NCBI GenBank assembly: GCA_035041965.1
Contig: JAPYMA010000892.1
Coordinates: 1-64,000 of the forward strand
Direction: 5' to 3'
Source of the DNA: Anisakis pegreffii
Lineage: Eukaryota; Nematoda; Chromadorea; Rhabditida; Anisakidae
Length of the DNA stretch: 64,000 nt
Below the pieces are notes generated by a model, which ran no database searches, was not told the origin of the DNA, and saw nothing but the letters and a program-made list of their open reading frames with translations. The first letter of the stretch is position 1; each line of letters begins with the position of its first letter. Position numbers and translations under genes: made by a program. This document shows positions 1-35,463 of this stretch, in pieces.

Positions 1-650
1 TTAATTAAATGCCTATATCTCCTCAACAAGGCCAAATTGCTTGGTAAAATTTTTAATATTCTGAATCTAGAGGTTCTGCTGGATCGAACGATGAAAAGAA
101 ATTCGCATGTTTCCGGGCAAACCTGAGAAGACGGTTAGCTTGAAGATCGCAATCCGCCTATTGCTGATGTGAACGTATTAATTGCTCTATAGTGATCAAT
201 TTGTATGAATGAGCGTGACTGCGCTATCGAATTGTGATAGATCTATGTAAATGGCTATAGCTCCTCAGGAAAGCAAAATCGCTCGACAAAATATATGTTT
301 TCCTGAATGAGGGCATTCAGCTGGATCGACTGATGCAAAAAATGCATATGTTAGTGGGCAAACTTGAGCTTACGGTAGCCTCGAAGGTGGCACCAGAGAT
401 AGTATTAATTAAATGCCCATATCTCCTCAACAAGGCCAAATTGCTTTGTAAAATTTTTAATATTTCGAATTTAGAGGTTCTGCTTGATCGGTTGGTGAAA
501 AGAAATTCACATGTTTCTGGGCAAAGTTGAGAAGACGGGTAGCCCGAAGAACGCAATCCGCCTATTGCTATATGAGCGTGTTGATTGATCTGTAGTGATC
601 AATTTGTGCGCTATCTCTGGAAAAAGTTCTCATGATTTTCAAGCTCAGAA
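1..650. repeat. Dispersed repeat family A, left cluster
   Basis: Three diverged units follow each other. Each has a landmark like CTATATCTCCTCAA (near 13, 253 and 414) and, about 105 bases later, a landmark like GGGCAAACTTGAG (near 115, 356 and 519) followed by an ACGGTAG-type tail. The same landmarks in the same order recur five times at 54.2-55.2 kb. Open frames on either strand shift between copies, so I read this as non-coding repeat. The cluster is cut by the left edge of the window. Confidence 0.75.
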
Positions 651-757: not shown

Positions 758-1137
758 AGTTTGAGATAACGAGTCTGAGGAAAATTTTGGATTGATTACC
801 TAGATTTGACGTAACATTTGCTCCCATTACCCAAGTTTGAGGTACTAGCCGGTTCGATTACCCAAGTTTGATGTATTATTTGGTTCGTTTACCCATGCTT
901 GAGGTAGCAAACTTGAGGTATCATTTGGTTCAGCTACCCAACTTTGAGATAACATTTGCTTTGACTGCCCATATTTGAAGTAACATTTGGTTCCATTACC
1001 CAAATTTGAGGTAACATTTGGTTTAATTACCCAAGTTTGAGTCAACAATTGGTTTGATTACCCTAGTTTGAGGTAACTTTTGGCTTGATTACTCATGTTC
1101 GAGGAAACATTTCATGGTGTTACTGGACAAATTTGAG
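758..1137 (+). repeat. Tandem array of SL1-like sequences, 31-bp period
   Basis: Ten 22-nt SL1-like segments start at 789, 820, 851, 882, 927, 958, 989, 1020, 1051 and 1082. Every step is 31 bp except 882 to 927, which is 45 bp because 14 bp ending in TTGAGGTA are duplicated. The copy at 1020-1041 is identical to canonical nematode SL1; by my count the others match 15 to 20 of 22 positions. Most units continue with GTAACATTT, so the unit equals a leader plus a splice-donor-like start and a few bases. Seven of ten have GT directly after the leader. Degenerate edges run from about 758 to 1137. No SL RNA body with an Sm site and 3' stem follows any copy, so these are not standard SL RNA genes. 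Confidence 0.9.
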
Positions 1138-1482
1138 AACACGGGTAGTTTGAAAATGGTGCTCATGATATTCCCGCAAAACTGCATCATTGATCACACC
1201 AAAGTGGTCAAATGTGCAGGGTCTGGCAGTTTTACAGAACACCTTAAGTCATTTTACAAGCTATCAAAATCATGTTGTATCCGTTGAACTAAGCAAAATC
1301 CGTCGACAATATATATTATATTCTGAACGGAAAGGATCTGCTAAATCCGATGGTAACAAGAAATCACGGTGTTGCCGAGCAAACTTGACGGCATGTAGAA
1401 ATGAAGGAATTATCCGAAAAAAAATCGGCGATGAACACTTTGAATTACAGCTGGGAAGAACTGAAATTATGCTAAAAAAGTT
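1138..1482. repeat. Degenerate family A repeat copy
   Basis: Weak but ordered matches to family A flank the SL1-like array on its right. They include GGACAAATTTGAGAACACGGGTAG at about 1125, CAATATATATTATATTCTGAAC at about 1307, and GAGCAAACTTGACGGCATGTAG at about 1378 (landmarks given approximately). The short open frames here are unsupported. Confidence 0.5.
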
Positions 1483-32915: not shown

Positions 32916-33625
32916 TGTCGAGAAGAATAAAATTAGGAAAGATTTGTTCTCGACGACAAATCTTATGTTGTTGAGTGGCGTTGTGTTGTGCGGTAACGAG
33001 GGAACGAGTAGTAGGATTTTATTTGACAATATGATGATGATGTAAGGTTATATTATACAATAGTGAGAAACTGATTGATGGGGATAGGTTACGCAAAAAG
33101 GGAAGGTGACGGCTCCTTGTTAAAGGTGATGACAAGATAACGGATAGAGTATCCGTTTATCTTATGTCGTTGGGTCAGTCGTTGATTATCGTAACGCAGT
33201 TGTCGTTGTATTGTTTGTCGAGTGATCGCAATGATCCATGTGATTGTATTTATACCCTTCTTGATTCGGAACTGCGTGCTGTTCCGACAAATTCCATTTA
33301 GAAGATCCAGGTTACAATCACCGGCTGTGGTGCGTAGATTTGTTTTCCGACAAATTCCATTTAGAAGATCCAGGTTACAATAACCGGCTGTGGTGCGTAG
33401 ATTTGTTCCTTGAAGACAACGGGCTGATCTCAATACGTGTATTGCTCCAATTGTCCTGCTGTTCAAACGGTTTTTGGGACCGTTATTTGATTGATCACTG
33501 TTTACGTATTTATTACTAGTTTGGAGATTTGCTTAAAATGACATTTGAATGTCATTAATCATTTCACTAATTTAACTCTATTATTTATAAATTTATGGAG
33601 GATCTGACTCGCGGACTTCGCGACA
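32916..33625. repeat. LTR (left copy)
   Basis: Starts TGTCGAGAAGAATAAAA and ends GGACTTCGCGACA. From about 33127 to the end it is nearly identical to the right LTR, with about six differences in 499 bases. The first 200 bases are far more diverged. Confidence 0.92.
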
Positions 33626-33807
33626 CTCCCGAGCGGAAAAAGTCTCACATTTATCATAGTGGACTTATCAAAGGTGAAAAATATTGATGCTGGCTTTTGG
33701 AGTAGGATCCCAGGTTTCGCATCTGATTGTCTCGGGGGTTGTACCGCCGGAGTTGCATTTGTTGATTTGACGACGGTTTGTATCGGCGAGTTGGGTAGTA
33801 GTTTTTC

Positions 33808-34470
33808 GATTGCCACCGCTTGTATGCTGATAGCTCGATTGTCGTACATCTCGATTGCCACCGCTTGTATGCTGATAGCTCGATTGTCGTGCATCTCGAT
33901 TGCCACCGCTTGTATGCTGATAGCTCGATTGTCGTGCATCTCGATTGCCACCGCTTGTATGCTGATAGCTCGATTGTCGTGCATCTCGATTGCCACCGCT
34001 TGTATGCTGATAGCTCGATTGTCGTGCATCTCGATTGCCACCGCTTGTATGCTGATAGCTCGATTGTCGTGCATCTCGATTGCCACCGCTTGTATGCTGA
34101 TAGCTCGATTGTCGTGCATCTCGATTGCCACCGCTTGTATGCTGATAGCTCGATTGTCGTGCATCTCGATTGCCACCGCTTGTATGCTGATAGCTCGATT
34201 GTCGTGCATCTCGATTGCCACCGCTTGTATGCTGATAGCTCGATTGTCGTGCATCTCGATTGCCACCGCTTGTATGCTGATAGCTCGATTGTCGTGCATC
34301 TCGATTGCCACCGCTTGTATGCTGATAGCTCGATTGTCGTGCATCTCGATTGCCACCGCTTGTATGCTGATAGCTCGATTGTCGTGCATTTCGATTGCCA
34401 CCGCTTGTATGCTGATAGCTCGATTGTCGTGCATCTCGATTGCCACCGCTTGTATGCTGATAGCTCGATT
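33808..34470. repeat. 45-bp minisatellite, about 15 copies, inside the LTR element
   Basis: The unit starts TCGATTGCCACCGCTTGTAT and ends TTGTCGTGCATC. Copies are almost identical; variants sit near the ends (GTCGTACATC in the first, GTCGTGCATT in a late copy). Since 45 is a multiple of three and the unit has no stop in five of six frames, long open frames appear on both strands. On the minus strand these read as 15-residue repeats such as NRAISIQAVAIEMHD or QSSYQHTSGGNRDAR. None looks like a known Gag. Confidence 0.93.
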
Positions 34471-34751
34471 GTTGTTTCCTTCGCAGCTTTGTTGTAGCAG
34501 AAGGCCTGGTCGTCGTTGTTGTTGCTGCTGAGTCTTCGTGAACGCGGAGCTGGATTCCACGTCCTTGTCTCGACCAATTGATTGTTGTCGTTCGACCGGA
34601 TGTGACCATTTCATATTTTCGCGCACTATCACTTGTCCAATCGATACCACTGGTGCTGTCGAGCATTCCCGTCAGCGTAGCAGTTGATTAATAATTGGAA
34701 TAATAATGGCAGACATGGTGAGTTTCTTACCTCACCGGCTGGGCCCCCAAA

Positions 34752-35463
34752 TGTCGAGAAGAGTAATAAATAAGAACGATTGATGATAAGATTTGTTCTC
34801 GACAACAAATCTTAAGTTGTTGAGAGGCGTTGTAGTGCGGTAACAAGAGCACGAACAATAAGATAATTTTATTGGATAAGGGCAAATAGATACAATATGA
34901 GGTGTAAAGTTGATTTACGGCGACAGATTATGTCAAAGGGGAAAGTGGCGACTCCTTGTTGAAGGTGATGACAAGATAACGGATAGAGTATCCGTTTATC
35001 TTATGTCGTTGGGTCAGTCGTTGATTATCGTAACGCAGTTGTCGTTGTATTGTTTGTCGAGTGATCGCAATGATCCATGTGATTGTATTTATACCCTTCT
35101 TGATTCGGAACTGCGTGCTGTTCCGACAAATTCCATTTAGAAGATCCAGGTTACGATAACCGGCTGTGGTGCGTAGATTTGTTTTCCGACAAATTCCATT
35201 TAGAAGATCCAGGTTACAATAACCGGCTGTGGTGCGTAGATTTGTTCCTTGAAGACAACGAGCTGATCTCAAAACGTGTATTGCTCCAATTGTCCTGCTG
35301 TTCAAACGGTTTTTGGACCGTTATTTGATTGATCACTGTTTACGTATTTATTACTAGTTTGGAGATTTGCTTAAAATGACATTTGAATGTCATTAATCAT
35401 TTCACTAATTTAACTCTATTATTTATAAATTTATGGAGGATCTGACTCGCGGACTTCGCGACA
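34752..35463. repeat. LTR (right copy)
   Basis: Starts TGTCGAGAAGAGTAATAAA and ends GGACTTCGCGACA. It is the 5' LTR if the element is read on the minus strand, because the primer-binding-like sequence adjoins it. Confidence 0.92.

Follow-up and report, generated by a model that had tools for sequence, protein, structure and literature searches.

SL1-like minisatellites at about 20 loci of the Anisakis pegreffii genome and their probable descent from the 5′ end of SL1 RNA

A short tandem array of units resembling the 22-nt spliced leader SL1 was analysed in Anisakis pegreffii (assembly GCA_035041965.1, contig JAPYMA010000892.1, here C637). The window is the whole 64,000-nt stretch that was analysed, positions 1 to 64,000 of the forward strand. 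The array belongs to a dispersed minisatellite family, whose unit probably derives from the 5′ part of the SL1 RNA. The repeat family is real, with good though incomplete evidence for its derivation from SL1, and function is probably absent. We regard the family as mildly surprising. The most interesting lead is that 5S-SL1 units meet copies of SL1 located in mobile or LTR-like repeats.

An array of SL1-like units on contig C637

The array and its surroundings comprise the following features, all on the plus strand.

1..608, +: SAT-A, a dispersed satellite (unit ~405 bp) on the left side of the array
789..1112, +: minisatellite with a 31-bp period, made of ten SL1-like 22-nt units and their spacers (SL1 mismatch scan, Tandem Repeats Finder)
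904..926, +: spacer with 14 bp extra, giving the sole 45-bp step (unit spacing)
1020..1041, +: unit identical to SL1, 22/22 (exact search)
1113..1400, +: right flank, repeat-like (matches to the flank of locus L050 and pieces of six array loci)
1116..1137, +: satellite segment after the last unit, weak SL1 likeness with 7 mismatches

The contig begins 0.8 kb before the array. Its units start at 789, 820, 851, 882, 927, 958, 989, 1020, 1051 and 1082, and the SL1-like 22-mers span 789-1103. All steps are 31 bp save that from 882 to 927, which is 45 bp (31+14). Tandem Repeats Finder reported 826-906 and 908-1112 with a period of 31, which is the same stretch. Taken in order, the units carry 6, 4, 3, 5, 4, 7, 3, 0, 2 and 5 mismatches to SL1 (mean identity 82%). 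The majority consensus, GGTT[T/C]GATTACCCAAGTTTGAG, has T in five units and C in five at position 5 and is 1-2 changes away from SL1. The spacer GTAACATTT is found exactly in three of the ten units, GT starts the spacer in seven, and the unit identical to SL1 continues with TCAACAATT. Hence the preliminary description was right about the ten segments, the 31-bp period with one interruption of 14 bp, the copy identical to SL1 at 1020-1041 and a consensus one or two positions off canonical SL1.

Given the base composition of the window, the expected number of exact SL1 copies is 1.6e-8 for the window and 3e-5 for the genome (122.7 Mb); an exact chance match to the 22-mer in 64 kb is indeed negligible, as had been stated. 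No site with ≤5 mismatches to SL1 occurred in 20 random windows that kept the dinucleotide steps. For the whole genome, 0.06 sites are expected at ≤2 differences from SL1 and 1.3 at ≤3, so that a single unrelated satellite family resembling SL1 would not be impossibly rare. Such a chance resemblance is nevertheless highly unlikely. The likeness extends past the leader into bases that pair in stem-loop I, and it is seen again in 28-, 29- and 31-bp arrays and in the interspersed B repeat described below.

Comparison with the SL RNA genes of the species

The genome contains 132 exact copies of SL1 and none of the reversed sequence used as a control. RF00198 gave at least 31 genome matches, at least 24 of them above the cut-off; these counts are lower bounds from 50 scored of 35954 first-look candidates. 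Most matches above the cut-off are found in tandem arrays with unit lengths of 552 or about 559 bp, and in the L001 tandem unit 5S rRNA is present alongside the SL RNA. The species' own SL1 is canonical. Therefore the likeness of the array to the leader of its own species, which the preliminary description had wanted compared, holds. After the leader, the SL RNA continues with GTAATTACATG and not with GTAACATTT. The spacer is therefore not simply the next nine bases, and the proposal that the unit corresponds to the leader plus about nine following SL RNA bases is not supported as it was put.

The exact SL1 in the array and the GT behind the leader in seven of ten units would also be expected if the 5′ end of an SL RNA gene had been duplicated and multiplied in place. 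This origin is unlikely, however, given that the SL RNA of the species continues differently and that related arrays exist at other loci. Moreover, a scan of the window against Rfam at gathering scores returned zero families and no whole SL RNA, and none of the 27 promoter-SL1 sites of the 5S-SL1 type found genome-wide (≤3 mismatches) is on C637. Likewise, no match to the RF00198 covariance model was obtained in 12 array loci (L010-L017, L019-L022). The absence of a whole SL RNA from the window thus agrees with the earlier account, whereas its statement that the unit lacks the stem-loops does not wholly hold, as the inner stem-loop I is largely kept. An SL RNA-like locus below the Rfam cut-off (59.8 bits) was seen at C521:3867 (L050); it has a variant leader with 2 mismatches. 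Positions 1112-1388 of the window resemble the flank of L050.

A dispersed family of related arrays

The preliminary description treated the array as a single truncated-leader array and proposed a genome search for the unit. This search found it dispersed: related SL1-like repeats are present at about 20 loci in one genome, with periods of 28, 29 or 31 bp. The window array as query gave 15 matches on 13 contigs, the 28-bp array L013 added six contigs, and a pattern search added one more related locus on C89. Two or more SL1-like units (≤7 mismatches) were found in 17 of 18 compared loci, L104 having one unit. The steps are 31 bp in ten of these loci (L016 being mixed) and 28 or 29 bp in seven. 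C1505 and C89, outside the 18-locus set, have one unit each at ≤5 mismatches. Both unit orientations occur within L015, L017, L022, L099 and L105, and the 18-locus comparison revealed partial units and flips among the arrays.

Controls with reversed patterns were empty. For the 13-nt core, 13 exact tandem pairs were counted at four loci, none of them the window array, compared to 0 for the reversed core. The 31-bp unit pattern (≤3 mismatches) had 43 genome matches against 0, and the 28-bp unit pattern 140 against 0, the latter count consisting mainly of SL RNA genes and further dispersed copies of SL1. Because related arrays lie on other contigs, misassembly at this locus is an unlikely source of the pattern. 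Neither the tandem pattern nor SL1 was found in viral contigs, a collection from which records near this genome may be absent.

SAT-A is present inside the fetched stretch at 8 of 13 loci (the window and 12 others) and absent at five. It is abundant (scoring 39 out of 1258 candidates gave at least 217 matches), and therefore its neighbourhood alone proves little. The right flank of the window shares pieces with six array loci (L010, L015, L016, L020, L021 and L022). L016 and L021 have an identical array/satellite junction, so joint spread with satellite DNA has occurred. The unit phase at the array ends varies among loci.

Two kinds of carrier were considered and rejected. For an array inside one transposon, SAT-A at only 8 of 13 loci and the differing end phases left no single carrier. 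A foldback element was tested at four loci: the inverted arms of L017 consist of array units from the same locus in opposite orientation (28 nt, 93%), those of L014 lie away from the array, and L015 and L022 showed no arms.

Unit anatomy and decay

Each unit consists of an SL1-like 22-mer and a short spacer that mostly begins with GT. When 85 units were pooled, the majority base agreed with SL1 at 20 of 22 positions, a result that is partly circular since units were selected at ≤7 mismatches to SL1. The exceptions are position 5 (C 57, T 18) and position 6 (G 44, A 37), and the pooled unit centre is 1-2 changes from SL1. If the columns are treated as independent, their base frequencies predict 0.87 exact SL1 copies in a set of 85 units, and 1 was observed. 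Recent copying is therefore not required, and the idea that the exact copy is a sign of youth was dropped as unneeded.

Many units extend beyond the leader by GTRA, the closing strand of stem-loop I of the SL RNA. Among 68 distinct units, 79-85% have standard pairs at 8-26 to 12-22 of this stem-loop, a figure that retention of the bases alone would produce; at 5-29 to 7-27 the share is 26-41%. A stem-loop maintained as a selected RNA structure was rejected. Among the listed types, change on both sides of an inner pair was seen in one unit only (pair 9-25, CG for TA), and the pairs therefore look kept by descent. In five stretches compared with shuffles, folding was better in the 28-bp array L013 (z -5.25) and in a true SL RNA (z -2.19), but not in the window piece (z +0.82), L010 (z -0.89) or L061 (z -0.03).

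Within the window array, diversity is 0.247 in the core and 0.313 in the spacer (8 of 10 units usable). Across six arrays, the core is less diverse than the spacer in three, more diverse in L012 and L013, and equal in L019 (both 0). These values bear on the idea that the arrays are under selection, as clusters of protein-binding SL boxes or initiators or as tandem starts for short leader RNAs. The presence of SL1-like cores in several kinds of repeat, and in LTRs close to the expected start of R (a placement that we infer), would suit such a job. In Ascaris, the leader is reported to act within SL RNA genes as an internal promoter element. Selection is, however, very improbable, as the core is not consistently better conserved than the spacer within arrays, the end phase varies between loci, and flips and partial units are present. 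The arrays probably have no present role and would be dead, ordinary satellite DNA. The stretch GGTTCGATTACC may resemble a tRNA B box.

The B repeat and a proposed origin of the unit

An interspersed repeat, termed B (L106-L113 and L116), has an SL1-like core with palindromic flanking words. The core is preceded by a CATTT-like end and followed by GTAAGC in most copies. Most B-repeat copies share the C at position 5 with the pooled array units. The claim that the unit looks like an SL RNA 5′ end has to be amended accordingly: the unit does resemble SL1 beyond chance, but the pooled difference is mostly this C. At L016 a B-type long spacer, GTAAGTATAGAGCACTATATGTGCTTTAGTTTTT, separates two SL1-like units. 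The copy L109 has GAGCACTATTTGTGCTTTAACATTT ahead of the core and GTAAGCATGCAGCACTATA behind it, and deleting what lies between GTAA and the TAA that precedes CATTT in the L109 type leaves GTAACATTT. The 31-bp unit would accordingly represent a shortened B spacer; that the change ran in this direction is our reading of the two sequences.

Descent of the family from the SL1 RNA may be pictured as follows. The ancestral unit would have comprised the 22-nt exon and the bases immediately downstream, which supply the opposite strand of stem-loop I. A segment resembling SL1 but with C as its fifth base would first have entered the interspersed repeat B, and loss of the palindromic spacer stretch of B could then have left the compact spacer GTAACATTT. 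Slippage or unequal exchange would have produced short arrays, some of which may have spread together with satellite DNA, and the arrays would be decaying at present. The order from B repeat to 31-bp array is suggested by the spacers, and the reverse order is possible. Two further repeats with an SL1-like core (2 mismatches), L114:240-678 and L115:237-675, are 97.7% identical to each other and unlike the other families seen.

A different source would be an SL1-bearing LTR or LTR-like element, with the core coming from solo or broken copies rather than from an SL RNA gene or B. Five LTR pairs carry exact SL1 37-46 bp ahead of the LTR end. In addition, the family L061, L062 and L067, which is probably an LTR and lies outside the pairs checked, reads SL1+GTGATC. 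The 28-bp unit is one base apart from this sequence (27/28), so this dispersed family could be its source. We nonetheless consider an LTR origin a rather doubtful possibility. A second SL1-like site (≤6 mismatches) occurred in 0 of 40 dispersed exact-SL1 stretches (L054-L093, ≤701 bases), and GTAACATTT followed SL1 in 0 of the same 40. Stem-loop I also predicts GTRAT after SL1, so that the extra bases weigh little. The array units furthermore lack features of an SL1-bearing BEL/Pao LTR, as the bases after the units differ from the primer-binding-like context TGGTGCC.

Exact SL1 copies in LTRs and Pao elements

At least 93 exact SL1 places were listed outside the 5S contigs and the window (at least 87 from the exact search and 6 from the 28-bp pattern search). 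Among the matches listed, at least 10 same-strand exact SL1 pairs lie within 12 kb. The Pao protease domain PF05380 gave 43 genome matches from 48 candidates scored, 0 of the 43 being on C637. Exact SL1 was found within 12 kb of 10 of the 43, while 33 had none among the matches listed. Five Pao domains lie between same-strand SL1 copies 6.4-10.2 kb apart (C55:10232/20408, C57:31247/39954, C130:141526/148828, C400:123179/131579 and C986:4260/10676). Three of these five flanking pairs aligned clearly or in full length, the C130 pair along the whole stretch; the C986 pair was outside the comparison. On C1048 a nearby Pao match is on the opposite strand to SL1.

Clear LTR pairs were obtained in five of eight comparisons (L056/L057, L059/L058, L086/L087, L088/L089 and L081/L080; 92-100% identical), and in these the primer-binding-like TGGTGCC stands behind one copy only, the 5′ one. 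Of the other pairs, L065/L066 match over the full stretch, L063/L064 over 123 bp, and L091/L092 gave no match. The LTR loci were found by exact match, and a perfect SL1 there is therefore uninformative on constraint. Exact copies are not all in LTRs, as L084 is a lone copy adjoining SAT-A. LTRs of the Ascaris element Tas carry the leader. SL1 copies also flank Pao retrotransposons in Brugia malayi, according to the available part of that report (PMC7181701), and the LTR/Pao part of our results is therefore known in kind.

5S-SL1 units joined to SL1-bearing repeats

At L052 on C671 (reversed locus about 1092-2285), one 5S-SL1 unit has an SL1-bearing dispersed family on both sides and is joined to it exactly at SL1. 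The order on the minus strand is L120-like sequence (76.9%) up to SL1, the 5S-SL1 unit (95%) and again L120-like sequence (96.5%, 227 bp). The 5S-SL1 unit is complete, with 558 bp from SL1 to SL1. In view of the 76.9% and 96.5% identities, the flanks may derive from different copies and perhaps not from one element. The L120 family is probably an LTR, an assignment made without an LTR pair. On C14 (L007:1501-1915, C14:3861 on), a 5S-SL1 run switches at SL1 to another SL1-bearing family, with 97% identity over 415 bp. The SL RNA body is absent at three of the 27 promoter-SL1 sites, namely those on C14, C671 and C1485; the C1485 sequence after SL1 had no recognised match among the compared loci. 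On C283 the left end falls within SL1 (position 7) and the right end away from SL1. The ends of the 5S-SL1 segments at C1052, C521 and C1599 (right) are away from SL1 as well.

The joints at SL1 point to recombination between SL1 copies, with template switching during reverse transcription as an alternative source. If the C671 and C14 junctions hold, 5S-SL1 units may reach new sites by recombination at the leader, and such movement bears on the spread and likeness of SL RNA genes. A tentative idea, to which we give little probability, is that SL RNA genes move by way of leader copies scattered in repeats, with these copies as their landing sites. By conjecture, the SL1-like arrays might contribute to such a pool of short homologies. 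A 5S-SL1 unit flanked at SL1 by a repeat, or inside an LTR, was not reported in the partly accessible literature that was searched.

Relation to known systems

The window array shares with the nematode SL1 RNA gene (RF00198, 5S-linked) the 22-nt exon, a GT donor in most units and the inner stem-loop I. It differs from the gene in having no 5S-SL1 promoter on C637, no whole-RNA match and decayed units, one of ten being exact and the others having 2-7 mismatches to the SL1 exon. As in other minisatellites, units of about 10-100 bp are arranged head to tail and related arrays are found at other loci. The SL1 copies around Pao elements of Brugia malayi likewise lie outside SL RNA arrays and form same-strand pairs, as far as the available text tells (PMC7181701). 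That text describes single SL1 sites, whereas tandem arrays and five pairs with SL1 inside the LTR are found here. In flatworms, partial leaders lie near LTR and LINE elements (PMC12582326), which is similar to our case in that leader-only sequence travels with repeats; unlike here, the available part of that account gives no minisatellites.

Relict leaders of dinoflagellates are tandem genomic leader copies too, going by the accessible portion of PMC3229502. Repeated trans-splicing followed by cDNA reinsertion could in principle have generated the arrays in the same manner. This is extremely unlikely, since the dinoflagellate relicts, as described there, are AG-truncated, sit at mRNA 5′ ends directly behind the canonical leader and have no donor spacer, while the units here keep a mostly GT-initial spacer. 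A nematode SL1 minisatellite was not found in the literature searched, which was available in part and left most subscription papers outside its scope. The arrays show SL1-like sequence within several distinct repeat backgrounds of one genome. Scans for SL genes that use the 22-nt leader alone will catch these arrays as well as the LTR copies.

Other repeats in the window

A 45-bp tandem repeat with 14.8 copies and 99% matches occupies 33806-34472 of the window and stays open in several reading frames of both strands. Two 63-bp duplications with a common consensus lie 1.8 kb apart at 33282-33407 and 35121-35246, an arrangement that suggests local segmental duplication.
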